Below, one piece after another: positions 2,313-17,318 of a DNA stretch of 64,000 nucleotides. The notes beneath the pieces were generated by a model. It did not search any database, had not been told where the DNA came from, and saw only the letters and a list, made by a program, of their open reading frames with translations. Numbering within the stretch: the stretch's first letter is position 1; every line of letters starts with the position of its first letter. A program made the translations under genes and the position numbers. The stretch is from Alphaproteobacteria bacterium. Its GTDB lineage: Bacteria; Pseudomonadota; Alphaproteobacteria; Caulobacterales; Parvularculaceae. The DNA is taken from positions 1 through 64,000 of the forward strand of contig JAUIMC010000013.1 of the NCBI GenBank assembly GCA_030433215.1, written 5' to 3'.

Positions 2313-2888
2313 GTGGCTGATCTCATTGAGCGGTTGAGATTGTTGAAAGCGGCTGGCGGCTTGAAGGCAGACAGTAAATTTTCCAACATTTTATTTCCTC
2401 CGCTTTCAACAAATGAAATACTTGCTGCTGAAGAAGCGTTGGGGTTTCAGCTTACGCCTGTTTTGCGTCGTATTTATACTGAGACCGCCAATGGGGGCTT
2501 TGGGCCCTCATATGGGTTGCTCGGCGTATGCGGCGGCATGCTGAACGAAGATGGTAATGACGCGACGCGTCAATACACACAGTACCGAGAATTAGACCCT
2601 AATGACGCCCATTGGTTTTGGCCCGAAGGGGTTCTGCCTCTCGGTCATCTCGGCTGTGCGATGTACCTTTGTGTCGATTGTTCTCGGCAAGACGGGCCAG
2701 TAATTTGGTTTGAACCGAATGCCCATTTGGATGGGGAAACCTGGAAAACGTCTTTTGTTCCTTTTGCGCATAGCACTGAAGAGTGGCTTGCAGCGTGGCT
2801 GGATGGAAACGATATTTTTGACGCAAAAGCGGAGGGCCTTCTTTCGAAGCATTTGAGCAGCTTTGACTGTGCCGGCGGTCAGCATTGA
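2313..2888 (+). CDS. SMI1/KNR4 (SUKH)-family protein
   Basis: 191 residues. A GTG start abuts the mutL TAG with no gap, so it is probably translated by coupling or read-through of ribosomes. The pattern LSTNEILAAEEALGFQL, then RRIYTETANGGFGP and YGLLGV, is the SUKH fold signature (acidic helix, LG, then NGG and G). SUKH proteins commonly neutralise toxins of contact-dependent or polymorphic toxin systems, though many have unknown roles. No toxin gene is adjacent. Base composition is visibly lower in GC than mutL or the next gene, with A/T-ending codons, which suggests transfer into this position. The immunity function is inference from the family. Confidence 0.75.
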   Translation: MADLIERLRLLKAAGGLKADSKFSNILFPPLSTNEILAAEEALGFQLTPVLRRIYTETANGGFGPSYGLLGVCGGMLNEDGNDATRQYTQYRELDPNDAHWFWPEGVLPLGHLGCAMYLCVDCSRQDGPVIWFEPNAHLDGETWKTSFVPFAHSTEEWLAAWLDGNDIFDAKAEGLLSKHLSSFDCAGGQH

Positions 2889-2940
2889 TTGCTGTGACTC
2901 AATATATAACCATAAAGTAGATAAACCGGGAGGAGCACTG

Positions 2941-3546
2941 ATGAAGCACAGCCTGATGGCGGCGGCGATCGCCGCCCTTCTGATGTTGGGCGGGCCTGCT
3001 TTCGCCGCCGACAAGGCGGAGGCCTATGAGCCCATGGCGCCCTTCGCCAAGCTCGCCGGCAAGGCCTGGCGGGGCGAGGGCGTCGGCCCCAATGGTCAGC
3101 CCGTGGTCGATATTGCGCGCTATGAATTCATTCTCGGCGGGCGCGCCTTTCAGTCCACCCATCGCCTGGAGAACGGAAGCTATGGCGGGCGCACCATCAT
3201 CTTCTATGACGAGGGCGCGAAGAAACACATCTTCCATTATTTCACGACTGCGGGCTTTCACACCACCGGCGAAATCACGCCGAGCGAAGACGGCTTCACC
3301 GCAGTGGAGAAAGTTGAGGGCCATGACGCCTTCGCCGAAGTGCATTCAAAAGCCGTCTATGGCGACGGGACGATCCGCATCGTTTCCTCTCATGTGACGC
3401 ATGACGGCGTGAAGTCCGAAGGCGAAGGTCTTCTCTATCGTGAAATCGACGATCCGGGCCCCTTGTTCTTCGACGAAGCGGACGCGCTTTTCGGCAAGCG
3501 CACGGACGTCAAGGACGCGCATGACCGTTACTCGGACAAGGACTGA
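2941..3546 (+). CDS. secreted protein, DUF1579-like (tentative)
   Basis: 201 residues from an ATG preceded by a strong GGGAGGAG ribosome site; an upstream in-frame start at 2863 is not needed. A signal peptide covers residues 1-22 ([13 protein letters not shown], cleavage after AFA). The mature part is beta-rich, with [20 protein letters not shown] and [10 protein letters not shown], resembling DUF1579/lipocalin-like barrels that begin with a short weight/scaffold strand and a LGGR turn. Assignment to DUF1579 is from memory of the pattern only. The stop codon overlaps the start of the nitroreductase gene by one base (TGATG), so the two are likely one operon. The function is unknown. Confidence 0.8.
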
Positions 3547-4229
3547 TGGCTGACCCGACCTTCACGGCGCTTGCCGATCTTGGCGATCATATCGCGCGGT
3601 CCGATGAGGACATGCAGACGCGCGCCGCGGCGTTTTTCGAGGAAATGAAGCGCCGCCATACGGTGCGTGACTTTTCCGACAAGCCCGTGCCGCAGGCCGT
3701 GATGGAGGCCTGCATCGCGGCGGCCGGCCGCGCGCCGTCGGGCGCCAACCATCAGCCCTGGTTCTTTGGCCTTGTGGGCGATCCCGCCGTGAAGCGCGAG
3801 ATAAGGCTGGCCGCGGAGGAGGAAGAACGCGCCTTTTACGCAGGCCGCGCCGGCGAGGAATGGCTCGATGCGCTCGAGCCCATCGGCACCGACGCGCAAA
3901 AGCCGTTCCTTGAAACCGCGCCCTGGCTTATCGCCGTATTCGCCCAGCGCCGGGGCGGCGTCGAGGCCGGCATGGACAGGAAAAATTACTACATCAATGA
4001 AAGCGTCGGCATCGCCTGCGGCTTTCTCATCGCCGCGCTACACCATGCGGGGCTCGCCGTCCTGACGCATACCCCCAATCCCATGAGTTTTCTTAATATG
4101 AAACTCGGCCGTCCGGCTACGGAGAAACCCTATCTCCTGATCGTCGCGGGCCATCCCGCGCCGGATGCGAAGGTTCCCGATCATGCGCTGATCAAGAAGC
4201 CCTTATCGGACATCATGAAAGTCTATTGA
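3546..4229 (+). CDS. nitroreductase family protein
   Basis: 227 residues. FMN-dependent nitroreductase fold: [14 protein letters not shown] near residue 35 (flavin-binding Arg), then [13 protein letters not shown] near residue 60 (Ser/Asn contacts and entry helix), and a C-terminal [10 protein letters not shown]-type strand ([12 protein letters not shown]) before the end. This arrangement is closest to the subgroup that includes iodotyrosine-deiodinase-like and BluB-like enzymes. The substrate is not predictable from sequence. It would act in the cytosol as a homodimer using NAD(P)H. Its start overlaps the stop of the upstream secreted protein by one base. Confidence 0.9.
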
Positions 4230-4383
4230 GGCTTTCCTGCGTTTCCCGATCCGATAGCGCTTCGGCTTTTCAGCTTTGCGCGAATCGCAAATCAGACTAA
4301 GCGTCCTAAATGCTGATTCGGCGCGGGGGAGAGCGCGCCGGACGCGCCTGCAAGGCGGAGCGTTCGCGAAGAGGGAGATTGCA

Positions 4384-4797
4384 ATGGGCATGATCAAGGA
4401 GTTTCAGGAGTTCGCCGTCAAGGGCAATGTCGTCGACATGGCCGTCGGCATCATCATCGGCGGCGCCTTCGGCACCATCGTCAAATCGCTTGTGGACGAT
4501 GTCATCATGCCGCCCATCGGGCTTCTTCTCGGCGGCATCGATTTTTCCAACATCGTCATCACGCTGAAAGAGGCGACCGCCGACGCCGAAGCGGTGACCA
4601 TGAATATCGGCATGTTCATCAACAATGTGATTTCCTTCCTGATCGTCGCCTGGGCGGTGTTCCTGCTGGTGAAAGGCATGAACAGCCTGAAGAAAAAAGC
4701 CGAGGCCGAACCGGAAGCGGCGCCGACGCCGGTCGAGCCGCCGAAGGAGCAGGTGCTGCTCGCCGAAATTCGCGATTTGTTAAAGGCGCGCGCCTAA
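4384..4797 (+). CDS. mscL: large-conductance mechanosensitive channel MscL
   Basis: 137 residues, the normal MscL length. MscL is an inner-membrane pentamer that opens under membrane tension to release solutes on hypo-osmotic shock. The N-terminal amphipathic helix ([19 protein letters not shown]) leads into TM1 ([24 protein letters not shown]), a periplasmic loop, TM2 (about residues 77-98) and a cytoplasmic C-terminal helix ([12 protein letters not shown]). The start at 4384 follows a GAGGGAG ribosome site; a longer upstream frame is not part of the family. It is followed by a clear intrinsic terminator. Confidence 0.97.
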
Positions 4798-4940: not shown

Positions 4941-5093
4941 ATGCGGGGATTCTTGAAATATTGTGTTGTCGCGGTTGTGTTGTTGGGCGTTGGGTCATGC
5001 ACCGATGATTCCGGGCGTTCCGCGCGAAGCCAGCAAGCCATAACGTGGGATTCCGCCCTCACGGGCTGGGACAAGAGCAGGTGGGGCGAGTAA
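4941..5093 (+). CDS. small putative lipoprotein
   Basis: 50 residues from the ATG at 4941. A short charged N-terminus (MRGFLKY) is followed by a hydrophobic stretch (CVVAVVLLGVGS) and Cys19, giving a lipobox-like VGSC, then a polar 30-residue tail with WDSALTGWDKSRW. Cleavage would leave a tiny lipidated peptide. The stop codon overlaps the start of the next gene (TAATG), indicating translational coupling. An upstream in-frame ATG at 4905 would place unrelated residues before the signal and is less likely. No known family recognised. Confidence 0.5.
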   Translation: MRGFLKYCVVAVVLLGVGSCTDDSGRSARSQQAITWDSALTGWDKSRWGE

Positions 5094-5629
5094 TGAAAGT
5101 TGACCTTAAGTCCGCTATCGCCGGCATGATGGTCGGGGCCGTGGGCGTGTCGCTCGCTTTGGCGGAGCAAATTTCCGTTCCCCATGAGTTCACGGCCGGG
5201 ACGACAGCGCGCGCCAGCGAGGTGAATGAGAATTTCTCTGTCTTACAAGAGGAGTCCAACGCCCAGGATATCCGCATTTCTGAACTTTCGGACGCGGTGG
5301 AGGGCCTTGGGGGCGCAGAGCAACTATATTGCATCAGGGATTTTCGAAGCACGGCGACGGTTGGGGACGGCCACGGGAGCGAGGTCGATGACGGCTTTCC
5401 CGTTCCGCGCATTACCCATTTGCCTGACACCACCATTGTGGCGCTGACGCCGACCGGCGCAATCTGTTTCGCTCCGTCCGATCCAAACGCTTTTATCGTA
5501 ACGGACCTAGCGACCCTTACCGATGAGGGCTGGCGGCTGCTTAATCTTTATCCAAGCCATGTCCCCAGATACTCCACCAAACGAGTCCCCCCAGAAGAGT
5601 TGGAAGATCTCTACGTCTTCGGGCGCTGA
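5093..5629 (+). CDS. exported protein with ARASEVNENF segment
   Basis: 178 residues. The start overlaps the stop of the small lipoprotein gene; GGTGGGGCGAG upstream serves as ribosome site. A signal peptide covers residues 1-24 (cleavage near LALA). It is followed by FTAGTTARASEVNENFSVL, a short segment recurring near the N-terminus of many bacterial surface proteins and phage tail proteins, usually just before a coiled coil. A heptad-like helix (about residues 45-75) follows. The rest is a small domain with two Cys (about residues 82 and 127). Function unknown. Together with the upstream lipoprotein it forms an isolated two-gene unit between the mscL terminator and lepA. Confidence 0.7.
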   Translation: MKVDLKSAIAGMMVGAVGVSLALAEQISVPHEFTAGTTARASEVNENFSVLQEESNAQDIRISELSDAVEGLGGAEQLYCIRDFRSTATVGDGHGSEVDDGFPVPRITHLPDTTIVALTPTGAICFAPSDPNAFIVTDLATLTDEGWRLLNLYPSHVPRYSTKRVPPEELEDLYVFGR

Positions 5630-5724
5630 GGGGGTATGACCCCAAGGCCGGTTTGTTCATTCTCCAGCCCTGCAACATGAATTTGCGGATTGTTCTGTAC
5701 TGAGCCTTCGCCTATATCCGCGCG

Positions 5725-7524
5725 ATGACCCCGCTCAAGAATATCCGCAATTTCTCGATCGTCGCCCATATCGACCACGGCAAGTCGACGCTGGCCGACC
5801 GCCTGATTCAGGTGACCGGCGGGCTGACGGACCGCGAGATGAAGGAGCAGGTGCTCGATTCCATGGATCTGGAGCGCGAGCGGGGCATCACCATCAAGGC
5901 CCAGACCGTCCGCCTCAAATACCAGGCGAAGGACGGCGAGGACTATATTCTGAACCTCATCGACACGCCGGGCCATGTGGACTTCACCTATGAGGTTTCG
6001 CGCTCGCTCTATGCCTGCGAGGGCGCGCTCCTGGTGGTGGACGCCAGCCAGGGCGTCGAGGCCCAGACGCTCGCCAATGTCTATCAGGCGATCGACGTCA
6101 ATCTCGAGATCGTGCCGGTCCTGAACAAGGTCGACCTGCCCGCCGCCGACACCGAACGGGTGAAAGCGCAAATCGAGGACGTCATCGGCATCGACGCCTC
6201 CGAGGCGCTGGAAATTTCCGCCAAGACCGGCATGGGCGTGCCGGACGTCCTTGAAGCGATCATTGCGCGCCTGCCCGCGCCGCAAGGCGACGAGACCGCG
6301 CCCCTGAAAGCGCTCCTCGTTGACTCATGGTACGATCCCTATCTCGGCGTCGTCGTTCTCGTGCGCGTCTATGACGGCGTCATGAAAAAGGGCATGCGCG
6401 TGCGCATGATGGGCGCCAAGGCGACCTACACGCTCGAACAGGTGGGCGTCTCGACGCCGAAGAAAACGCCCGTCGACGAACTCGGCCCCGGCGAGATCGG
6501 CTATTTCACCGCCTCCATCAAGGAAGTCGCCGAGACGGCGGTGGGCGACACCATCACCGAGGAAAAGCGCCCCTGCGAAAAGGCGCTGCCGGGCTTTAAA
6601 CCGTCCGTGCCCGTGGTTTTCTGCGGCATCTTTCCCGTCGACGCCGGGGACTTTGAGGATCTGCGCGACGCCATGGGCAAGCTCAGGCTTAACGATGCGA
6701 GCTTCGAGTTTGAGATGGAGACCTCGGCGGCGCTCGGCTTCGGTTTCCGCTGCGGGTTTCTAGGGCTCCTGCATCTTGAGATTATCCGCGAGCGCCTCGA
6801 GCGGGAGTTCAATCTCGATCTCATCACCACGGCGCCGAGCGTCGTTTACGACCTCCATCTCACCGACGGGACGAAGATCGAACTGCATAACCCGGCGGAC
6901 ATGCCGGACCCGGTCAAGATCGATCATATCGAAGAGCCATGGATCAAGGCGACGATCATGGCGCCCGACGACTATCTCGGGGCGATCCTGAAACTCTGCG
7001 AGGAACGCCGCGGCGTGCAGAAGGACCTTACCTATGCGGGCTCGCGCGCCATGGTGGTTTACGAGCTGCCCTTGAACGAGGTGGTGTTCGACTTTTATGA
7101 CCGGCTGAAATCGGTGTCGAAAGGCTATGCGAGTTTCGACTATCAGATTACGGAACATCGCACCGGAAGTCTCGTGAAGATGCAAATCCTCGTCAATGAC
7201 GAGCCGGTGGACGCGCTGTCGATCATCGTTCACCGCGACAAGGCCGAAGCGCGCGGGCGCGCCATGTGCGAAAAGCTGAAAGACCTGATCCCTCGCCACC
7301 AGTTCAAAATTCCGGTGCAGGCGGCGATCGGCGGGCGCGTGATCGCGCGTGAAACTATTGCGGCCTTGCGCAAGGACGTCACCGCGAAATGTTATGGTGG
7401 CGACGCGACGCGCAAACGCAAACTTCTGGAAAAACAAAAAGAGGGCAAGAAGAAGATGCGCCAGTTCGGGCGCGTCGAAATCCCTCAGGAAGCGTTCATC
7501 AAGGCGCTGAAAATCGACAGTTAA
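5725..7524 (+). CDS. lepA: elongation factor 4 (LepA)
   Basis: 599 residues, full length. LepA is a ribosome-associated GTPase that affects translation initiation and back-translocation. The G domain is at the N-terminus: AHIDHGKST (G1), ERERGITI (switch I), DTPGH (G3), NKVD (G4) and SAKTG (G5). Domain II follows, then the EF-G-like domains and the LepA-specific C-terminal tail rich in Lys ([15 protein letters not shown], near residue 570), which reaches into the ribosome. The usual lepB partner is not adjacent; the gene appears monocistronic. Confidence 0.98.
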
Positions 7525-7600
7525 AGACGTCTTTCCGCTTGCTTGCCTCTCTTGCGCGGACCCCTTAGGCTGTCCGCGATCAGGGTAAGGCGGGGCGATC

Positions 7601-8620
7601 ATGAAGTATTCTATTGGATTATTTGCGGCTTTTCTGGCGGCGGGCGCTGCGTTCGCGCAGGAAGAAACGCCGGCCGAGCCGACCCTTAGAACTTCTCCGG
7701 CCTATCCTGCGGCCTGCCGGCAGGCGCTCGGCGAGAACGCGCCGCCCCAGCATGTGTCGGTCATGTTCGACGTATCGAAAGACGGCGAAACGGAAAATGT
7801 GCGCGTGCGCGAAATCCCTCATGACTGTTTTACTGACTCCGTTATCGCTGCGGTTCGCGATTGGGTTTATGAACCGCGCCGCGTTGATGACCGGCGCGCA
7901 ACTGAAGAAGACCTCGAGGTCACTTTCACTTTTGTCCTTGAAGAGCCAACGCAAGCCGAGGAATTCGACGTCAAGCCGCTGCTTCGTCAGCCGCCGGTCT
8001 ATCCCGTGGGATGCATGCGCAAAGCCGATGAGTTGGAGAGGGTGCTTGTCGAGTTTGACGTCGATGTGGACGGGGAGACCGAAAACATATCGGTAGTGGA
8101 CACGACCAACAGCTGTTTGAACAACTCGGCTGTTGTTTCGATTGAGGAGTGGAAATACAGGCCCAAAATTTTTGAAGGAAAAGCCGTTCCCCGGGAAAAT
8201 GTGCAGACGATAATCACCTATCACCTATCCGACGAGCGGCGTGGGTCTCGTCCAGGCGTTGCGAAGAAACTCATGCGCGCGCAAAAGCGCGTTGCGAAAG
8301 ATAAAGATGCTGGCGCGGCCTTCGCGATCCTGGATGAGGTTGAGGAGAGATTTGGCGAGAACTTTTCCGTTGAGGAGCTTTCCGCCTTCCACCAGGTGCG
8401 CGGCATGGCGCTCTTGCAGACAGGGGACTATGCCGGCGCGCTCGATGATTTTCGCATTGTCAAACGCTTGGGTGTGAACGACACAGACACATCTCAGGTC
8501 ATCAACGAGATGATCCTGAAACTGGAGGCGGAGTTGGGGATCGCTTCGGCGTTGCTCGGTCCTGATCAGCAACCGGAAAGCGGCGGCGAAGAAACAGAAG
8601 GCGCTCCGCCGTCGGAATAA
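7601..8620 (+). CDS. secreted protein with two TonB C-terminal-type domains and TPR-like tail
   Basis: 339 residues with a signal peptide (cleavage after AFA near residue 19) rather than the N-terminal membrane anchor of a true TonB. Two successive copies of the TonB-C motif are visible: TLRTSPAYPAAC ... VSVMFDVSKDGETENV ... VRDWVYEPR (about 28-100), and LLRQPPVYPVGC ... VLVEFDVDVDGETENI ... IEEWKYRPK (about 127-200). Each copy has a Cys after YPxx and another near its middle (PHDC, TNSC), suggesting an intradomain disulfide. About residues 230-310 look helical and repeat-like, ending in an acidic tail. Such proteins are common in Hyphomonadaceae-like genomes; the partner is unknown. A GGGGCG ribosome site precedes the ATG. 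Confidence 0.8.
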   Translation: MKYSIGLFAAFLAAGAAFAQEETPAEPTLRTSPAYPAACRQALGENAPPQHVSVMFDVSKDGETENVRVREIPHDCFTDSVIAAVRDWVYEPRRVDDRRATEEDLEVTFTFVLEEPTQAEEFDVKPLLRQPPVYPVGCMRKADELERVLVEFDVDVDGETENISVVDTTNSCLNNSAVVSIEEWKYRPKIFEGKAVPRENVQTIITYHLSDERRGSRPGVAKKLMRAQKRVAKDKDAGAAFAILDEVEERFGENFSVEELSAFHQVRGMALLQTGDYAGALDDFRIVKRLGVNDTDTSQVINEMILKLEAELGIASALLGPDQQPESGGEETEGAPPSE

Positions 8621-8668
8621 GCGTTTTCAAGGCGCTTTGCCGCCGGAAACCGCTTTTGCCGGCTGGCC

Positions 8669-9340
8669 TTAAAACCTAACCGTAAGACCGAGACTCAAGA
8701 CGGGGTGAAACGGAAAGTCGTCGAGATCGTCGGCGAGCCTTTGCGCCTCTTCATCAAGATCGTCCTGAAACGCCGGATCGCTGGCGAGAAGGCCGCCGGT
8801 CGCCTCAAGCGTCACATCCGGGTCGCCGATATAGGCGGCGCCCAGCATCGCCTGGAAGCCGAAGCGTTTTATCGCGTTCAGTCCGTTATTGAAGCCGACG
8901 CCAAGAAACGGCGCGGCGTTGTTCCAGTCCGATGTGCCGGTGAGCATGCCGACTTCCTGCGGCGTATAGGTGCGGTCGCCGATTTCCACGGGCCGGGACG
9001 GCGTCGCGCCAAGATCGATGGACCGGCCGGAAAAATAGGCGCCGCCGGAAACGCGGAAGCCGTTCGCGAAGGGGTGGATGTCAAGCGCCGTTAGGCCGGC
9101 GGTGAAACCGACATCGAGATCGTAGCTGACATCGTCGATGGTTTCGGAAAGCGAGAGGTCGGCGTAGCGGAACCCGGCGCGCGCCGCGACGAAGGGGCTG
9201 ACCTTGTAAAGCGCGTCCGCGCCGATCCCGTCCGTTCCGACCGAGGGGCCGACCGAAAAGCCGGTGGTCTGCGCCAGGGCGGCGCCCGGCGCGCAAAGAA
9301 GCGCGCTCGCCGCCGCAAGGATGTGCAGAATGTTGCGCAT
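8669..9340 (-). CDS. outer-membrane beta-barrel protein
   Basis: 223 residues. A signal peptide (residues 1-23, cleavage after ALA) is followed by alternating amphipathic strands typical of small 8-stranded barrels, such as FVAARAGFRYADLSL and FRVSGGAYFSGRSIDL. The protein ends in LSLGLTVRF, the aromatic C-terminal residue used by the BAM machinery. A helical acidic stretch near residues 185-210 probably forms a surface or periplasmic loop. The barrel fold is inferred from strand pattern; no specific porin family is recognised. Confidence 0.8.
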   Translation of the reverse strand: MRNILHILAAASALLCAPGAALAQTTGFSVGPSVGTDGIGADALYKVSPFVAARAGFRYADLSLSETIDDVSYDLDVGFTAGLTALDIHPFANGFRVSGGAYFSGRSIDLGATPSRPVEIGDRTYTPQEVGMLTGTSDWNNAAPFLGVGFNNGLNAIKRFGFQAMLGAAYIGDPDVTLEATGGLLASDPAFQDDLDEEAQRLADDLDDFPFHPVLSLGLTVRF

Positions 9341-9435
9341 GGGGTCCTCGTGAAATCCGCTTCGGAGTTGACGGGGACGCTAGCGGCCGAAGGTAAAGGC
9401 GGCGGCAAGAGGGACGATAAAATGCTTGTTTCTGC

Positions 9436-10305
9436 TCAGGCCGGGGGCTGAACAGGTTTGTCCGCCGGGGCCGCGGCGCTTGGCGGAGCCTGCGCCGGCC
9501 GGGGGCGGGCGGCGTCTTTGGTCTTGCGGAACGGATCGAGCGCGAGATTGCCGAAAGTGTCGGCCTCCATGGCCTCCGGGCCTTCGACCCCGAAGCGTTC
9601 GTCTTCGCGCAAATGCTCCGCGCCGGAAAAGGTGCCGAAGATCTGGTCCCAGATCGTGAAGGCGGTGCCGTAATTCAAGCGCTGCCGTTCTTCATCCGTG
9701 GAATGGTGCTGGCGGTGAACGGCGGGGGTTGTGATGATCCGCGAGAGAATGATGTCGGCCTTGCGCGGCAGGGCGATATTGGCGTGGGTGAAGGCGTTGG
9801 CGACGACATGGATCAGATAGATCAGCAGGATGCCTTCCGGCGGCACGCCAACGGTCACGACAACGGCGACTTCGATCAGCGCCCGGAACAAGGTTTCCAG
9901 GGGATGGAAGCGCAGGGAGGTGCTCGCGTCGATCTCGGCGTCGGTGTGATGCGTGCGGTGCGCGCGCCACAGGAAATACCAGTGATGCAGCATGCGGTGC
10001 TGCCCATAGGCCATCAGGTCGAGAACCAGAACCGCCGCGATCAGCCGCGCGGCGAACGGAATGTCGAGCTGGTTCATCAGCCCGAAACCGTTCGCTTCGG
10101 CCGCCGCGGCCGCGCCGAAGGCCGCGATGGCGGGAATGGCGCTCAACAGGATCGCGCCGTAAACGGACATGGAGGCGTTGCGCAGCCAGCGCGCCGGATC
10201 GATCCTGAGGCCCTTGCGCCAGGGCAGGAGGCGCTCGGCCAGCGCCGCCGCGCCGAGCACGATGATGAGGTAATAAACCCCGCCGAGGCCTTTGACGAAT
10301 TCCAT
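9436..10305 (-). CDS. sterol desaturase / fatty acid hydroxylase family protein
   Basis: 289 residues from the ATG at 10303-10305, which has a strong GAGAGGGAG ribosome site; a longer frame upstream lacks support. Di-iron membrane hydroxylase: His clusters HRMLHH, HRTHH and HRQHH are arranged on both sides of hydrophobic segments, with additional His at HVVANAFTH. Several transmembrane helices occupy about residues 7-110. Members hydroxylate or desaturate sterols, fatty acids, carotenoids or hopanoid lipids; the substrate here cannot be told. The C-terminus is Pro/Ala-rich. It diverges from the VPEMD-CTERM genes. Confidence 0.9.
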   Translation of the reverse strand: MEFVKGLGGVYYLIIVLGAAALAERLLPWRKGLRIDPARWLRNASMSVYGAILLSAIPAIAAFGAAAAAEANGFGLMNQLDIPFAARLIAAVLVLDLMAYGQHRMLHHWYFLWRAHRTHHTDAEIDASTSLRFHPLETLFRALIEVAVVVTVGVPPEGILLIYLIHVVANAFTHANIALPRKADIILSRIITTPAVHRQHHSTDEERQRLNYGTAFTIWDQIFGTFSGAEHLREDERFGVEGPEAMEADTFGNLALDPFRKTKDAARPRPAQAPPSAAAPADKPVQPPA

Positions 10306-10436
10306 GGCTCCCTCTCGCCGGCGAGTTTCGGGAATTGCAGGCCGCCTTGCAAGCCGCCCGCCATGCGGGATTCCGGTCTTTTGCGCCCGTTTGCCTTGCG
10401 GGACGGACGCGCGGCGCAGCCTCAAGCTGTGCGCTC

Positions 10437-10465
10437 TTGTGAAAGGTTACCGTCCGTTTTACCAT
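10437..10465 (+). promoter_or_regulatory. candidate sigma-70 promoter for the VPEMD-CTERM genes
   Basis: TTGTGA and TACCAT are separated by 17 bases, each matching 4 of 6 consensus positions. Transcription would start near 10472, about 27 bases before the first VPEMD gene. Confidence 0.35.
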
Positions 10466-10498
10466 GAAACTACTGATGGGACGGAGGGAGATTAGGTC

Positions 10499-10663
10499 AT
10501 GAGACTAACAGCACTCGTCGCCGGCATGGTTCTTCTGGCGCAGCCTGCCTTCGCGACGGCGCCGACGTCGGTGCCGGAAATGGATGTCGGCGCCGGGTTC
10601 GCCGCCATCGCGCTTCTCGCCGGGGCCGCCGCGCTCATTCGCGAACGCGGCCGGCGCAAGTAA
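10499..10663 (+). CDS. VPEID-type (VPEMD) CTERM sorting-signal protein 1
   Basis: 54 residues, found by reading the frame directly. The ATG follows a GGAGGGAG ribosome site. It has an N-terminal signal peptide (MRLTALVAGMVLLAQPAFA), then only TAPTS, then VPEMD at residues 25-29, a hydrophobic helix (AAIALLAGAAALI) and an Arg/Lys-rich end (RERGRRK). This tripartite end (short motif, membrane helix, basic cluster) is the hallmark of exosortase substrates. VPEMD matches the VPEID-CTERM class, whose dedicated enzyme is exosortase E, encoded 340 bases downstream. After both cleavages almost nothing would remain, which is unusual. A paralogue follows after 34 bases. Confidence 0.85.
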   Translation: MRLTALVAGMVLLAQPAFATAPTSVPEMDVGAGFAAIALLAGAAALIRERGRRK

Positions 10664-10697
10664 ATCGACCACATTAGCGACCAAGGGGGTACGACCT

Positions 10698-10859
10698 ATG
10701 AAGAAAGTTCTTTTGACTGCAGCCGTGACCTTGATGGCGAGCCCGGCTTTCGCCGGAACGGCTTACAAGGTTCCGGAAATGGACGCCGGCGCCGGCGTTG
10801 CAGCCGTGGCGCTGCTTGTCGGGATCGGCGCGATCCTGCGCGAAAAGATGAAAAAGTAA
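10698..10859 (+). CDS. VPEID-type (VPEMD) CTERM sorting-signal protein 2
   Basis: 53 residues. Signal peptide MKKVLLTAAVTLMASPAFA, then GTAYK, VPEMD (residues 25-29), a hydrophobic helix (AAVALLVGIGAIL) and a basic end (REKMKK). It is a tandem paralogue of the preceding gene: the same layout and the same spacing between signal peptide and motif. The mature stretch differs (GTAYK against TAPTS), so the two may give different peptides or simply be redundant. It is followed by a strong terminator, so it ends a two-gene transcript separate from, or partly read through into, the exosortase gene. Confidence 0.85.
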   Translation: MKKVLLTAAVTLMASPAFAGTAYKVPEMDAGAGVAAVALLVGIGAILREKMKK

Positions 10860-10880
10860 CCGGCCTTTCCGCTGGGAACG

Positions 10881-10912
10881 AAAAAGCCGGCCTTGTCAGG
10901 CCGGCTTTTTTT
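10881..10912 (+). terminator. rho-independent terminator between VPEMD genes and exosortase E
   Basis: AAAAAGCCGGCC and GGCCGGCTTTTTTT flank a TTGTCA loop, giving a near-perfect stem with a T run on the + side and an A run on the other. It lies 22 bases after the second VPEMD gene and 91 bases before the exosortase start. Confidence 0.9.
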
Positions 10913-11002
10913 GTCCGTTGTTTTTCAAGGAAGGTTACGGCGCAAGGCTTGCGCGCCATTGACCTTCGCGCGCTGTAACGGGACTTTAGGGCGAGGAGAG
11001 GG

Positions 11003-12655
11003 ATGAAGCAGGCGCCGACAGTCGAAAGCGAGATGCCGGCGGCGGGGCGAGATTCCGGGCCGCTTGTGTGGCGCGCGGGGCTTCTCGGCTGTCTTGCGGC
11101 TCTCGAACTTCCCTTTGTCGCTTTTCTTTACGACCCGACGGCGATCAGCGCGGCCCCGGCCTGGCGCGAGGCGCAGATGGCGCTGCGCGAGGCGGTGCCT
11201 TTCACGCTGTTTTTCCTTGCCGCGCTTGCGCTCCTCCTGACGCCGCGGCGGATCGCGGTCTGGCGCGATTGGGCCGGCGCGGCGCGGGCCCATGCCTGGC
11301 GCCCGGCGCTTGCGCTCAATCTCGTCCTGATCGCAGGGCTTGCGGCTGCGACCCTTATCTTCAACGGCTATGACGGCGACGCGCATGGCCCGCCCTGGGG
11401 GCTTTTTGCGGCGTGGACACTGGCGGCGCTCGCCGCCTACGCCGCCCTGGCGCTCGCCGCTGCGCCGCTCGGCTTCTGGCGCGGCTTTTTCGACCGCGAA
11501 CGCGCTTGCATCGCGCTCGCCGCCGGCGCCGCGATGATGATCGAGGCGGCGGCGATCCTTTCGCGCCAGTCCTGGAGCCTTCTGTCCGACGCGACCTTTC
11601 ATTTTTCCGCGGCCCTCTTGCGCCTTTATGAAAGCGACGTCGTCACGGCTCCCGACGCCCGCGTCATCGGCGTCGACGGGTTCAAGGTCAACATCGCGGC
11701 CGCCTGCTCCGGCTATGAGGGGATCGGCCTCGTCGTGACTTTTCTCGCGATCTATTTCTGGGTGTTCCGGCGCAGCCTGAAATTTCCGAATGTGTTCATC
11801 ATGCTGCCGGCGGGCGTCGCTGCGATCTGGATTCTGAATTGCGTGCGCATCGCCATGCTGGTCAGCCTCGGCGCGCATGTCTCGCCGGAAGTCGCCGTCA
11901 CCGGCTTTCACAGCCAGGCCGGCTGGATGATGTTCCTTGTAGTGACGATCGCCGTCATGGCCGTGACGCACCGCCTTTCGTTTTTTCACCGGCTGGAGGC
12001 GAAACGCGAAACCGGCGTCTCTTCGGCGGCGAAACTGGCGGCGGCGCTGCTGGCGCCGTTTCTCGCTATGACCGCGGCGACGATCCTCGGCGCGGCGTTT
12101 TCCGCCGACGGCCATTACTGGGTTTACGGGCTTCGCGTCGCGGCGCTGTTGCTCGCGTTTTTTGCGTTCTGGCGCGTTTACAAGGCGATGGACTGGCGGG
12201 CCGGGGTGGAGCCGGTTCTGTTCGGCGTGCTGGTGGGCGCGGTCTGGATCGCGACGGACCCGTCGCGCGCGGAGGCGAGCCCGCTTGGAGACTGGCTTGC
12301 AGGCCTTCCCCCGCTTTTGCTGGCGCTGTGGCTCGGTCTGCGGCTGTTGGGAACCGTGCTCCTTGTTCCGCTGGCGGAGGAACTCGCCTTTCGCGGCTAT
12401 GTGCACAGGAAACTGATTGCCGAGAAGTTCGAGGCCGTCGCCGAAAGCGCTTTCACATGGAAAGCCTTTCTCATCAGTTCAGGCCTGTTCGCGCTTCTTC
12501 ATGAACGCTGGCTGGCCGGCGCCTTTGCCGGCGCTGTGTTCGCGCTCGCCATGTACCGATCGGGCAAGCTTTCGGGCGCTGTCGTCGCCCATATTGCGGC
12601 GAACGCCGTGATCGCCCTGTGGGCCGTCGTCTTCAAACAATGGACGCTGTTGTAA
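11003..12655 (+). CDS. xrtE: exosortase E fused to CPBP (CAAX-type) intramembrane protease
   Basis: 550 residues. The N-terminal half is an exosortase: multiple membrane helices and the catalytic triad Cys235 (in AACSGYEGIG), Arg282 (LNCVRIAML) and His303 (GFHSQAGW). The C-terminal half is a CPBP/Abi-type protease with E459-E460-LAFRG (Arg464), His500 (LFALLHERW) and H530-x3-N534. This fusion is the architecture described as exosortase E/protease of the VPEID-CTERM system. It is expected to cleave substrates at the VPEMD motif in the inner membrane and perhaps transfer them to an acceptor; what the second protease does is not known. A GAGGAGAGGG ribosome site precedes the ATG. The two cognate substrates lie just upstream, behind a terminator. 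Confidence 0.93.
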   Translation: MKQAPTVESEMPAAGRDSGPLVWRAGLLGCLAALELPFVAFLYDPTAISAAPAWREAQMALREAVPFTLFFLAALALLLTPRRIAVWRDWAGAARAHAWRPALALNLVLIAGLAAATLIFNGYDGDAHGPPWGLFAAWTLAALAAYAALALAAAPLGFWRGFFDRERACIALAAGAAMMIEAAAILSRQSWSLLSDATFHFSAALLRLYESDVVTAPDARVIGVDGFKVNIAAACSGYEGIGLVVTFLAIYFWVFRRSLKFPNVFIMLPAGVAAIWILNCVRIAMLVSLGAHVSPEVAVTGFHSQAGWMMFLVVTIAVMAVTHRLSFFHRLEAKRETGVSSAAKLAAALLAPFLAMTAATILGAAFSADGHYWVYGLRVAALLLAFFAFWRVYKAMDWRAGVEPVLFGVLVGAVWIATDPSRAEASPLGDWLAGLPPLLLALWLGLRLLGTVLLVPLAEELAFRGYVHRKLIAEKFEAVAESAFTWKAFLISSGLFALLHERWLAGAFAGAVFALAMYRSGKLSGAVVAHIAANAVIALWAVVFKQWTLL

Positions 12656-12658
12656 GCG

Positions 12659-13222
12659 CTAGTCCGCGCGCTTGACGTATTCCATCGTCTCGGTGTTGAC
12701 GATGATCTTTTCGCCCGTGGTCATGTAGGGCGGGATCATGATGCGCAGCCCATTGTCGGCGATGGCGGGCTTGTAGGAAGAAGACGCCGTCTGGCCTTTG
12801 ACGGTCGGTTCGGTCTCGACCACTTCCAGCGTCACATGCTCCGGCAATTGAACGCCGATGGGGCGGCCTTCATGGCTTTCCACGACGACGGCCATGCCGT
12901 CCTGAAGAAACGCGACGCGCTCGCCGATCATGTCCTTGTGGATGTTGATCTGCTCATAGCTCTCGGCGTCCATGAACACCAGCATGTCGCCTTCGGCGTA
13001 AAGATAGGTGTGGTCTTTTTGCTCAAGGCGCACGCGCTCGACCGTTTCGGCGGCGCGGAAGCGTTCGTTCAGCTTGCGCCCGTCTTCGAGGTTTTTGAGC
13101 TCGACCTGCGCATAGGCCGGGCCCTTTCCGGGCTTCACCGCATTGACCTTGACCGCGGCCCACAGGCCCCCCTGATGCTCGATGACATTGCCGGGACGGA
13201 TTTCGTTGCCGTTGATTTTCAT
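12659..13222 (-). CDS. efp: elongation factor P
   Basis: 187 residues. EF-P enters the ribosomal E site and relieves stalling at proline runs. Three beta-barrel domains are recognisable: the N-terminal KOW-like domain with the loop KPGKGPAY, whose Lys33 is the residue modified (beta-lysylation) in many bacteria, then two OB domains ending with the family signature near [13 protein letters not shown] and [15 protein letters not shown]. No epmA/epmB modification genes are in the window. The stop lies 3 bases from the convergent exosortase stop. Confidence 0.97.
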
Positions 13223-13317
13223 GGCTCTTGCCTTGTTCTTGGGAGCTTTTTGTCCATTGGGAAGCCGCGCCTTTATCAGCCCCGGAGAATGCTGGCAAGC
13301 GGCGCGGCGCCGCCCGG

Positions 13318-15531
13318 CTACATCCGGAAGGTGTGGCCGAGCCGCAAGGCCAGGCCCGAGCGCCGGGACATGAAATCGCGGGGAAAGTCCGTGCGCTCGA
13401 TCAGGGCCGTATGGCCGAAAGACAGGAATATCTCCCGCTCCGGGATCGGCTCCCAGCTAAAGCGCGAAAAAAAAGTGAAGGCCTCGGAAATGTTGTCGTA
13501 CTGGACTTCCGTCTTGATGGTCATGTCCGGCGTGAAGGCGATGATGGAATTCAGCGACGCGATGTGAACCCCGATCTGGCCTGAGGGCAGGTCGAAATCG
13601 GAATATTCATAGCCAGCGGCGAGTTCGAAATAGCGGCTTGGGCGCAGGCTTAATTCGCCGATGAGCTGGAGATAGTCGCCGCCATAGATGCCGCCCCAGC
13701 GCGCCTTGGTTCTCGCGCCGACCGTGCGCGCATTGGTGGCGGCGGCTTCAACCGAATACTGGTTCCAGCGATACTCGCCCGGGGCCACCGGGACTTCTCC
13801 TGCGACGGAGAAGGGGTCGACGATGTCGACGAAGCCATGTTCATAGCGCAGCCAGAACTCGTCGCCGGGATTGTTGGAGCCGCCGACCCAGGCGCCGAAA
13901 AAGCGGTCGAGGTCGCGCCCGTGGCGGTCGGTGATGATGTTGACGTAGCCGCCCGTCTCCGCCTCGCGGATGAAACTGTTCGACGGCCGGTAAGTGCGCC
14001 AGCCATTGACGTTGTAGCGCCTGATGCCGGGGCGGTTCACGAAGCCGAGCCGCGGGGCGTAATTCTCGCCGATATCGCGGAAGCGGAAGGTGCCGTTCCA
14101 TTTCTGGCTGCGATAGGCGGTTTCATGGGCGATCATGTGATCGCTCTCGCCGCCGGTGAAGCTTTGCATATAGGCGGTGTCGGCGAAGAGCGTGCCGTCG
14201 CCGAAGAGGTTCAGTTTCTTGTACTGGAAATCGGCGCCCGCGACGGTGCTGTTGTCCTCGCCGGTTGGATCGCCGTTTGTGAAGACAAGCCCCAGTTTCG
14301 AGGCGGAAAGAACGGGTACGGACAAGCGCGCCGAGGACAGGAACTGGCCGTCGACGCCGGCTTCGTCCGAGGCGCCCGTGCGCGCCGAGATCGCGCCGAT
14401 ATTGGCCGGGCCGAGCTTGCCGCTCAGCTTCGCGCCCGCCACGAGATCCACGGGCTGCCCGCGGACGATGCCGATATTGCGGGAAAAGAACGGCAGGCCG
14501 TTGTAATATTCCTGAAAGATCCGCCCGCCGAATTCGAAAACCTGCGCGTCTTGCAGGAAGAAATCTCGGGTTTCGGGATAGAACAGCGAAAAGCGCCCCG
14601 TATTGACCTGGCGGTCATCGAGTTGGGTGTCGGAGAAATCCGTATTGACCGTGAGCGAGCCGGTGAGCGAGGGCGTGATCTTGTAAAAGGCGTTGCCGCT
14701 CGGATTGAACTCGTAATCCTTCTCGTCGGTTGTCCAGTCATAGCTGGCCGAGCCCGTCGCATAGGCCTGAAGTTCCAGGCCGATGCCGCTTTCGACCTCG
14801 CGCACCCCGGACAGGCGCCCGGGATTGGTCATGTCGATGCGCCCGCGGGTGCGGTCCACATTCGACCAGCGGATTTCCTCGTTGTTGCGCCGGATATTGC
14901 GGACGATCTGGAAGTTCCATTCTTCCAGCGTCGAATCGAAAGAGATGGACTGAAAGGGAATGACGATTTCCGTCACCCAGCCATCCTCGACGAGCTGCGA
15001 TTTCGCGCGCCAGATGGTGTTCCACTGGTTCTGATAGTTGGAGTTGTTTTCGATCAGCGCGTCGGCGCGCGCGCCATTGGCGTTGACGCCGAAGAAATAG
15101 GCGTCGCGGAAAGAGCCGAAGGTGTCGAGATAGACGCGCACGGCGTCATCGTCGCGCAGGATGAAGTCGCGCTGCATCTGGGAGCGCCGGATCAGATGGG
15201 GCTGGCTGTCGTAATTATAGATGCCGATATAAAGATTGCGCTCGTCGAAGAGGATATAGGCCTTGGTGGGCTCCGAGGGCGGAGCGCCCTCGACCGGTTC
15301 GACCTGATAAAACTCCTCGATGGGCTGGGCGCGCCGCCAGACCGGATCGGAAAGGTCGCCGTCGATGATCGGCGCGTCCTCATGGGCGATGCGGACGGCT
15401 TCGACGCAAGGCACGAAATTCGAGAAATCGCGATCGAGGGCGCGCCTTCCAGTTCCGTCCTGCGCGGCTCCGGCTGGCGCGGCGGCGCAAAGCGCGGCCA
15501 GGGCGGCGAGCCATAATCCCGGTCGGCGCAT
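13318..15531 (-). CDS. DUF5916 outer-membrane protein with CBM9-like N-terminus
   Basis: 737 residues with a signal peptide (cleavage after GAAQ or nearby, about residue 23). About residues 45-230 form a CBM9-like beta-sandwich: [18 protein letters not shown], then [28 protein letters not shown] and [12 protein letters not shown]. The remainder matches DUF5916, a large beta-barrel-like domain with the conserved [19 protein letters not shown] segment near residue 310 and an aromatic/Met C-terminus (LRLGHTFRM). Such proteins are common in marine Bacteroidetes and alphaproteobacteria near polymer-degrading genes, but no such neighbours are present here. The actual substrate is unknown. Inverted repeats occur upstream of its start. 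Confidence 0.88.
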
Positions 15532-15614
15532 AAAATCCCCTCATTCGCCGCGCCTTCCCCGAGCGGCTCTGTTGCGCAATGCGGCTTACGAAAGCCCTGT
15601 CGCCAGGCCGGCGA

Positions 15615-15655
15615 CACACGCGCGCAACGATTGCGCACACAGTTTACATGACTGT
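15615..15655 (-). promoter_or_regulatory. two adjacent inverted repeats upstream of the DUF5916 gene
   Basis: GCGCAA (15622-15627) and TTGCGC (15631-15636) form a tight palindrome extended on both sides by CACAC/ACACA-like bases. ACAGT (15639-15643) and ACTGT (15651-15655) form a second one. Both lie 90-125 bases upstream of the DUF5916 start and could be operators; no regulator gene is adjacent. Confidence 0.3.
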
Positions 15656-15734
15656 CCGCCGCCGGGAACAGGCTATCGTTGAGACGGGATTGTTTTTTCG
15701 CCGCACCCCGATCATGGGAGCGCGGATGACAGGA

Positions 15735-16481
15735 TCAGACGGCGAGACGCTCCATCTCCTCGTCGGAGATCTCGAAATTTGAGTAGACGTTCTGCACGTC
15801 GTCATTGTCTTCGAGCGCATCGATCAGCTTCATCAGCGTCGCCGCCTTGTCGCCGTCGACGTCAATGGTGTTCTGCGGGCGCCAGAAGGGTTTAGCAGAT
15901 GTCGCTTCCCCGAACTTTTCTTCCAAGGCTGCGCTAACATCGGCTAGCTGGTCGAAGGCGCAGTAGATTTCATGGGTTTCCTCCGAAGACTGAACGTCCT
16001 CGGCGCCGGCTTCGATGGCCGCTTCCAGCATTTCCTCTTCCGAACCCTTGTCCGCCGGATATTCGATATAGCCGACGAGATCGAACATGAAGGAGACGGA
16101 GCCCGTCTCGCCCATATTGCCGCCGTTTTTCGAGAAGATGGCGCGAATGTCGCTGGCCGCGCGGTTGCGGTTGTCGGTCAGGGCTTCGACGATGACGCCG
16201 ACGCCCGCCGGGCCGAAGCCCTCATAGCGGATTTCCTCGAAGTTCGCTTCGTCCGCGCTCGTGGATTTCTTGATCGCCCGGTCGATATTGTCCTTGGGCA
16301 TGGACTGGGCTTTCGCGGCCTGGATGGCGAGGCGAAGACGCGGATTGAACTCCGGGTCCGGCGCGCCCATTTTCGCGGCGACGGTGATTTCTTTCGACAG
16401 TTTGGAGAACATCTTGGAACGCTTGGCGTCCTGGCGCCCTTTGCGGTGCTGAATGTTCGCCCATTTGCTGTGCCCGGCCAT
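15735..16481 (-). CDS. YebC/PmpR family protein (TACO1-like)
   Basis: 248 residues, starting with the near-invariant [21 protein letters not shown]. The family was described as transcriptional regulators, and more recently some members were shown to act at the ribosome to relieve stalling; mitochondrial TACO1 is a homologue. Conserved blocks [29 protein letters not shown] and [22 protein letters not shown] are all intact. The start at 16481 has an AGAGGA ribosome site; the much longer open frame upstream is non-coding. It is divergent from the SDR gene by 81 bases. Confidence 0.96.
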
Positions 16482-16562
16482 GGGGTGTCCTCTTGGCTGA
16501 AAAGGGGTTGATTTTCCGCCCGTTATGGCGCGGGCTCGCAAAAATTCAAGAGTGGAGGAGTT

Positions 16563-17318
16563 ATGGCCGGTCCAATCGGTGATCTGAACGGAAAAACGCT
16601 GCTGGTGACGGGCGCCTCGCGGGGCATCGGCGCGGCGGCCGCCAAGACCGCCCACGAGGCGGGGGCGCGCGTTCTCCTCCATGCCTCGGGACCGGGCGAG
16701 GCCGCGGACAAGGCCGCGGCGGCGGCCGGGGGCGAGATGATCTTTGAAGACCTCTCCCGGCCGGGGGCGGGAACCCGGCTCATGGCCGAGGCCGTGAAGC
16801 AGGCGGGCCGCCTCGACGCCGTCGTCAACAATGCCGGGATTTTCATGCCTTCGCCCATCGACGGCAGCGACGAGGGCTGGGCCGAGGGCTGGGCGCAGAC
16901 CATGGCCGTCAACGTCCACGCCCCGGCCGATATCTGCCGCGCCGCGATCCATCATTTCCGGGACAAGGGCGGCGGGATCGTCGTCAATGTGGCGAGCCGC
17001 GCCGGCCATCGCGGCGACGGACCGGATCATGCCGCCTATGCCGCCTCGAAGGGGGCCGTGCTCGCGATGACCAAGACCTTCGCGCGGGCTTATTCCGGCG
17101 AGGACATCCTTTTCTATGCGATCGCGCCCGGCTGGGTCGAAACCCGCATGGCGCCCCAGGACATCGAGAACCGCAAGAACGCGCTGAAGGATATTCCTCT
17201 CGGCCGCGTCGCCTCGCCGGAGGAAGTCGCGGCGATGATCCTTTTCTGCGCGTCGGGCGCGTGCCCTTCCGCGACGGGGGCGACCTTCGACGTCAACGGC
17301 GCCAGCTACGTGCGCTGA
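16563..17318 (+). CDS. SDR family oxidoreductase
   Basis: 251 residues with a classical short-chain dehydrogenase fold. [10 protein letters not shown] (about residues 17-26) binds the dinucleotide; NNAG lies near residue 90; the catalytic Tyr and Lys are in YAASK near residue 160, with Ser in [16 protein letters not shown] follows near residue 190. An adenine-ribose Ser/Arg rather than an acidic residue after the second strand would allow NADP, but this is uncertain. GGAGGAG precedes the ATG. The substrate cannot be inferred. Confidence 0.95.

Follow-up and report, generated by a model that had tools for sequence, protein, structure and literature searches.

The closest described system to the locus analysed here is the exosortase E/protease with its VPEID-CTERM substrates, defined in NCBIfam by the models TIGR04162 and TIGR04161. 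The locus lies in a window of 64,000 nucleotides (the whole stretch of DNA that was analysed; positions 1 to 64,000 of contig JAUIMC010000013.1, assembly GCA_030433215.1, from an alphaproteobacterium of the Parvularculaceae). Like the described system, it has an enzyme with full membership of the family and small, C-terminally tagged genes adjacent to it. Unlike that system, its substrates score below the TIGR04161 cut-off, stand in two to four tandem copies in the genus, have near-zero cargo and are linked to a hydroxylase gene (PF04116). The enzyme family and its name are already known, and the combination of exosortase E with cargo-free substrates and a hydroxylase partner appears to be new. 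Neither ‘VPEID-CTERM’ nor ‘exosortase E’ turned up in the open-access literature searched, most subscription papers lying outside that search.

Four further systems invite comparison. The PEP-CTERM/EpsH systems (XrtA, XrtD) share the PF09721 exosortase domain and the tripartite tail of motif, helix and basic end, but are reported from bacteria that have exopolysaccharide genes, with a median of eight tagged proteins in each genome (PMC1569441), whereas here there are two adjacent tiny substrates only. Archaeosortase A, which acts on PGF-CTERM proteins, is alike in the chemistry that we propose, C-terminal processing followed by C-terminal lipid attachment (PMC9263693); a known target of it is the S-layer glycoprotein, whereas the mature peptide predicted here would have about 10 residues and a presumed lipid. 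The genes of N-acyl amino acid synthases often adjoin PEP-CTERM/exosortase genes (Craig 2011, cited in PMC7293339) and are likewise lipid-enzyme genes linked to exosortase-type genes, but the enzyme family differs, the partner here being a PF04116 hydroxylase. Myxosortase MrtX is a CPBP protease acting on the tripartite C-terminal tags of MYXO-CTERM proteins (PMC11980579); it lacks an exosortase half and handles larger proteins proposed to be lipidated on Cys, whereas here the CPBP domain forms one protein with an exosortase and that Cys is missing from the tags.

Four genes of the locus are of interest:

11003-12655, plus strand: exosortase E/protease fusion, 550 amino acids, identified by matches to TIGR04162, PF09721 and PF02517 and by residue conservation
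10499-10663, plus strand: substrate S1, 54 amino acids, ATG start; a signal peptide of about 19 residues, followed by the core TAPTS, VPEMD, a helix and the basic end RERGRRK
10698-10859, plus strand: substrate S2, 53 amino acids, ATG start; a signal peptide followed by the core GTAYK, VPEMD, a helix and the basic end REKMKK
9436-10305, minus strand: membrane enzyme of the fatty-acid-hydroxylase superfamily (sterol-desaturase/OlsE-like), identified by PF04116; divergent from S1

The identity of the enzyme, its dedicated pairing with the substrates, the near-absence of cargo and the recurrent hydroxylase linkage can all be read from sequence comparison. We tentatively interpret the locus as a dedicated exosortase E system in which cargo-free substrates would yield a short lipopeptide and the hydroxylase would tailor the lipid, an interpretation that, taken whole, we consider possible rather than probable.

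The enzyme and its tiny substrates

The product of 11003-12655 is almost certainly an exosortase E/protease. It scores 266.6 bits against TIGR04162 over residues 56-549 (curated cut-off 150), which places it in the family to which the original prediction, made from the DNA letters alone, had assigned it. That prediction described an exosortase (Cys235, Arg282, His303) fused to a CPBP protease, and both halves are recovered by Pfam, the exosortase half by PF09721 (53.5 bits, above cut-off) and the CPBP/Rce1-like half by PF02517 (50.3 bits, cut-off 22.4). The predicted catalytic residues C235, R282 and H303 of the former and E459, E460, R464, H500, H530 and N534 of the latter are invariant in 67 aligned sequences, comprising the window, 64 of 78 complete relative frames and two sequences from the order sample, with one relative, L006, which lacks the Cys, left out. 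The AlphaFold2 model has a pLDDT of 92.1 and a pTM of 0.83; an earlier model from 13 sequences was poorer (pTM 0.57). A sequence search for relatives of solved structure gave one unrelated match (E 0.12), and Foldseek with the enzyme model found none at E<=0.001.

For relatives, species genomes were scanned and the best 80 of 179 confirmed loci retained, giving 81 loci with the window. These 80 span Proteobacteria, Planctomycetes, Acidobacteria, Myxococcales and others, and the closest named relative of the enzyme among them is that of Marinicaulis flavus (82% identity), whose corresponding locus, L026, carries three substrates. Nine loci, the window and eight of Marinicaulis, form a Marinicaulis-type set (the genus loci below), leaving 72 others. 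In the order, exosortase E (XrtE) was found at E<=1e-20 in at least 18 of 398 sampled genomes, 17 of them above cut-off, and of the genus's 28 genomes 11 have it among the matches listed. The genome carrying the window (3.75 Mb, 37 contigs) holds two other exosortases, both on other contigs, one of XrtD type (492.6 bits) and one of XrtA type (215.8 bits).

Two relatives of the enzyme deviate from the common form. L006:1423-3129 (genome G026) has the top TIGR04162 score in the order sample, 316.6 bits; its exosortase Cys and the equivalent of CPBP His500 are both replaced by Tyr, and it is adjoined by a small tail-like protein with an MPTES motif and without an evident signal peptide, which raises the question of whether the L006 protein is a catalytically changed relative. 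At G207:C4:169237-170557 (L023, L025), the exosortase E match runs over two consecutive frames, apparently split by a frameshift.

The two tiny genes upstream have the anatomy that the original prediction gave them. Both are open frames with an ATG start, and realignment retains the helix and basic end in each; their signal peptides, assigned by rule and not by SignalP, both end in AFA. Their scores against TIGR04161 (30.8 bits for S1, 19.2 bits for S2) are below the curated cut-off of 33, so their assignment to VPEID-CTERM stands on anatomy and co-occurrence with exosortase E, not on score. They are nevertheless the sole TIGR04161 matches in their genome at E<=10, and the only hits there of a profile built on genus substrates (E 2.3e-23 and 1.3e-26); these searches showed no other VPEMD-type ends. 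The shared VPEMD motif and the tandem arrangement, singled out at first, are present but ordinary: VPEM is followed by D, S, G or E in all 36 usable genus substrates, and genus loci carry two to four tandem VPEM copies. The anatomy of S1 and S2 appears precursor-like, as in ribosomally synthesised modified (lipo)peptides.

At E<1e-18 the genus-substrate profile found 37 substrates in 10 of 28 genomes, all XrtE-positive, with three additional weak matches (E 0.006 to 0.06). All except one are on XrtE-bearing contigs, the remaining one adjoining a hydroxylase at a contig end (L133); in the eleventh XrtE genome the locus is at a contig start and no substrate was detected. One of the 37 was dropped from the sequence statistics. 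With cleavage sites set by simple rules and not by SignalP, the stretch between the predicted leader cleavage and VPEM is only 4-11 residues long in 33 of the 36 substrates, and the other three have a core of 25-26 residues with a cysteine pair. These two-cysteine cores (approximately C-x17-C) are kept across species, one per locus, at L027:4184-4411, L030:4508-4729 and L031:4577-4807. Mean identity is highest in the tails (0.79), lower in the signal peptides (0.41) and lowest in cores of equal length (0.19, 126 pairs), and 34 of the 36 cores are distinct. Pooled over 22 close pairs of equal length, which are not independent, omega is 0.15 for the signal peptide, 0.52 for the core and 0.03 for motif, helix and basic end. 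As far as alignments tell, the part that is usually discarded is the most conserved and the part that is usually delivered is nearly absent, and we consider it very likely that the substrates are nearly cargo-free. Positive selection on the cores was considered and dropped: since omega (0.52 from 22 pairs, 0.51 from 37) is not above 1, diversifying selection is not claimed.

Small substrates are also found outside the genus. A substrate was recognisable in 57 of the 72 other loci (fetched stretch, up to 5 kb per side), three of the 57 lacking a clear signal peptide. Among the 54 classifiable loci, seven of whose cargo lengths were assigned by eye, all detected substrates have at most 12 residues of cargo in 22, drawn from several phyla. 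Genome-wide searches of 16 genomes with cargo-free substrates (E<=2e-8) returned, among the matches listed, small stop-to-stop frames of at most 175 codons, the sole exception being a 291-codon frame running into a 61-residue substrate; four weak matches (E 0.03-0.045) fall in frames of 113-661 codons. Three of the 16 genomes have extra substrate arrays on other contigs.

Some of these substrates have forms of their own. Hyphomonadaceae-type substrates (L037:4440-4703, L021, L023) have a hydrophobic stretch between two cysteines, a glycine-rich run and APEI[DN]. L034:71-196 and L035:4678-4803 encode VPEFD tail proteins of 42 residues upstream of exosortase E, with no recognisable signal peptide. 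In L177, a mini-substrate (2878-3060) directly follows a non-E exosortase (1856-2818; TIGR02602, 129 bits).

The pairing of enzyme and substrates was evaluated in a second sample of 100 genomes from an acidobacterial order, that of G407 (L089, Bryobacterales), with thresholds of at least 248 bits for XrtE, E<=1e-9 for mini-substrates and E<=1e-25 for the hydroxylase; all counts are among the matches listed. XrtE is present in 23 genomes, mini-substrates in 24 and both in 22 (Fisher 8e-19), and all other matches to the enzyme profile (at most 153 bits) cover the CPBP half only. We are highly confident, from this co-occurrence and that in the genus, that the pairing of XrtE with the substrates is dedicated.

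The hydroxylase neighbour and the intergenic regions

The comparison of gene neighbourhoods that the original prediction had proposed recovered the tandem substrates and a recurrent hairpin, and clustering of neighbours over all loci brought out a recurrent PF04116 protein that the prediction did not contain. This hydroxylase and the near-absent cargo, missing from it as well, are the more informative features of the locus. The protein at 9436-10305 scores 101.8 bits against PF04116 (cut-off 31), and its histidine boxes HX3H, HX2HH and HX2HH are invariant in 10 aligned linked hydroxylases. Against the OlsE model NF052566 it reaches 89.2 bits, far below the cut-off of 475, and by that score is not a member of that family.

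A profile search located the hydroxylase near the locus in all nine Marinicaulis-type loci and in 7 of the 72 others, an eighth having a more distant PF04116 protein. These eight flank genes compare with 0.43 expected at 0.78 per Mb, the PF04116 density in the eight genomes that hold them (p 2e-8), or with 1.1 expected at 2 per Mb (p 2e-5). In three gammaproteobacterial loci (L052, L053, L060) the hydroxylase gene follows that of the enzyme co-directionally, starting within 30 bp of it, and in genus loci it is divergent from the substrates; since the orientation varies by clade (divergent, convergent, co-directional), the adjacency has been kept through rearrangement. The gene order in L029 is hydroxylase, two substrates, hydroxylase, two substrates, XrtE. 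Its two hydroxylases share 64% identity, which looks like a joint duplication of hydroxylase and substrates. Outside the genus the hydroxylase is near 6 of 22 cargo-free loci versus 1 of 32 others (p 0.014). Within the genus, the subfamily at E<=1e-55 is found in 10 of 11 XrtE-positive versus 2 of 17 XrtE-negative genomes (Fisher 5e-5, a figure in which shared ancestry remains).

In the 100 acidobacterial genomes, 57 hydroxylase matches were obtained. Of those scoring at least 200 bits, 12 of 17 lie within 2 kb of a mini-substrate, compared with none of 6 at 150-200 bits and none of 34 below (0 of 40 in total); without G402, G406, G407 and G413, which were already in the earlier sample, 8 of 13 high-scoring hydroxylases are adjacent. 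The profile was built from linked proteins, so high scores of linked ones are expected, with adjacency itself being no part of the score. The 37 substrate clusters have, within 2 kb, both enzyme and hydroxylase in 5 cases, the enzyme only in 17, the hydroxylase only in 7 and neither in 8. Five of these seven hydroxylase-only cases (L170, L174, L186, L187, L188) were looked at individually, and L167, from another genome, is similar, having four substrates and a hydroxylase with no enzyme nearby. Together, we regard the hydroxylase as probably a functional partner of the system.

Most linked hydroxylases group together in a tree built from 20 linked and 11 selected unlinked sequences. A single clade of all linked hydroxylases is absent from the free tree but not rejected by the AU test (p 0.09); two rows of the first tree (L110 and L134) are identical and most likely the same best match from two overlapping loci. 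A hydroxylase specific to XrtE can be ruled out, because the subfamily (E<=1e-55) occurs in at least 118 of the 398 genomes sampled from the order, and XrtE in at least 18. In L182 (genome G501), an XrtH-type exosortase (1325-1801; 127.9 bits, cut-off 86) is near a hydroxylase of the same subfamily (3098-3934), so the linkage may extend beyond exosortase E. No paper of the open-access literature searched links an exosortase to a sterol desaturase or fatty acid hydroxylase, most subscription papers lying outside the search; one joins ‘ornithine lipid’ and ‘exosortase’, the latter only in its references.

Two intergenic features complete the locus:

10880-10911, plus strand: intrinsic terminator hairpin, 14 pairs then a T-run, between S2 and the enzyme gene
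10306-10498, no strand assigned: divergent intergenic region between hydroxylase and S1, 193 bp, read from the sequence

The strong terminator that had been predicted between substrate pair and enzyme holds up, with a minimum free energy of -31.3 kcal/mol for the region (z -3.9). A comparable hairpin was looked for in the 51 of 81 loci with an upstream substrate and a long enough gap. It is found in the last substrate-to-enzyme gap of eight of the nine Marinicaulis-type loci versus 0.37 expected from shuffles, with none in L032, and in 8 of 42 non-genus loci versus 1.4 expected, a few of which may fall inside the enzyme frame. The terminator may allow more substrate than enzyme to be made. No sigma-70-type consensus site was found in 9800-13500, which has little weight for an alphaproteobacterium.

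A proposed route to a short lipopeptide and its rivals

Exosortases are membrane enzymes with a presumed role in sorting proteins to the cell surface. Sorting tags almost without cargo and a recurrent hydroxylase neighbour suggest that this system instead yields a short peptide, either free or linked to a lipid. We hypothesize that Sec exports each tiny protein and signal peptidase removes the leader, which would leave about five residues plus VPEM on the periplasmic side of the inner membrane, anchored by the C-terminal helix. The exosortase half would then cut at the motif via Cys235 and join the freed peptide to a membrane lipid. The CPBP half would remove or trim the released helix, and the neighbouring enzyme of the fatty-acid-hydroxylase family would make or tailor the lipid that serves as acceptor. 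Such a route would end in a short lipopeptide of ribosomal origin with about 10 residues, or in a family of them, one per substrate copy. Export by the signal peptide, the recognition tail and intact active sites of thiol and glutamate type are supported by the predicted proteins themselves; we infer cleavage at the motif, transpeptidation, the lipid acceptor, the role of the CPBP half and lipid tailoring by the hydroxylase.

To our knowledge, what bacterial exosortases attach their substrates to is still unsettled. The idea of a lipid derives from the archaeosortase precedent, the adjacency of N-acyl amino acid synthase genes and the hydroxylase linkage, and by this analogy we consider a lipid conjugate as the product conceivable yet doubtful. 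We further speculate that exosortase E and the PF04116 hydroxylase may form a widespread lipopeptide machine in Alphaproteobacteria, Gammaproteobacteria and Acidobacteriota, in which tags would be precursors, the residues before V/A-P-E the core, the exosortase a core-lipid ligase and the hydroxylase a tailor of the lipid; so broad an extension is unlikely. With or without a lipid, a product of about 10 residues makes the system a small test case suited to mass spectrometry, and exosortase E gains a candidate partner gene in the PF04116 hydroxylase.

Several observations weigh against the lipopeptide interpretation. A histidine kinase gene is downstream of the enzyme in six of the nine genus loci, directly adjoining it in L028, L029, L031 and L032, and its place in the genus flanks leans to a signalling role. 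XrtE may hydrolyse its substrates and release a short pheromone-like peptide (the core with all or part of VPE) into the periplasm or to the outside, with the CPBP half clearing the helix and the tandem copies representing several signals. This is a serious rival, which we nonetheless judge to be somewhat unlikely. It would fit cores that are short and differ between copies in contrast to their tails, as well as tandem copies and a terminator that would permit high substrate expression. However, this kinase did not turn up within roughly 5 kb in the window, in L026 or in L058, the corresponding cluster outside the genus consists of mixed two-component proteins, which are common genes, in 8 of 72 loci, the omega of the core is not above 1, and the hydroxylase linkage is left unexplained.

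The normally discarded helix and basic tail being the most constrained part also fits tiny proteins whose tail is the function, namely small membrane-spanning proteins that act as regulators or subunits of the hydroxylase and of XrtE, with the exported core only a spacer; the dependence of the short core lengths on rule-based cleavage sites also weakens the lipopeptide interpretation. Clusters with a hydroxylase and no nearby XrtE are in line with a role for the tail, but substrates are present in 22 of 23 XrtE-positive versus 2 of 77 XrtE-negative genomes, which points to processing. Moreover, similar tails within a genome are what one would expect of exosortase substrates processed by a single shared enzyme. 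We consider this alternative unlikely. The remaining objections concern the generality of the lipopeptide interpretation: at least one longer substrate occurs in 32 of the 54 classifiable non-genus loci, so that the XrtE family does handle cargo, 17 of the 22 XrtE-linked clusters in the second sample have no hydroxylase within 2 kb, and the hydroxylase subfamily is widespread without XrtE. All three would be accounted for by ordinary exosortase E sorting of very small surface proteins, next to a general membrane-lipid enzyme without a role in processing. We regard such sorting as improbable, given a hydroxylase adjacency of 12 of 17 versus 0 of 40 and the excess of PF04116 genes in the flanks over either expectation.

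Other neighbours

Further partners were considered and not adopted. The four adjoining kinase genes are on the opposite strand (L028:6659-7930, L029:6696-7901, L031:6832-8133, L032:6736-7992), the orthologue is farther from the enzyme in L027 and L030, and all five kinases tested have HisKA and HATPase_c above cut-off. As a general partner the kinase was set aside: the two-component cluster is represented in 14 of 81 loci, by a single histidine kinase within the genus and by a mixture of proteins elsewhere. For exopolysaccharide genes, a cluster resembling export proteins (named by eye) occurs in only 4 of 81 loci, and none were recognised by eye in the frames of 7000-17000, where HMM libraries were run only on the neighbours 9436-10305 and 8669-9340. 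A glycosyltransferase partner was also discarded, as the neighbours in L169 and L171 share no mutual match and only one matches Pfam. In L171 a mini-substrate (4292-4483) is upstream of a PMT_2-type membrane glycosyltransferase-like protein (4958-6436; 30.7 bits), with no exosortase E seen within the fetched 9 kb. In the window itself, 8669-9340 on the minus strand, beside the hydroxylase gene, encodes an outer-membrane beta-barrel-like protein that scores 67.6 bits against the CarO model (cut-off 300).

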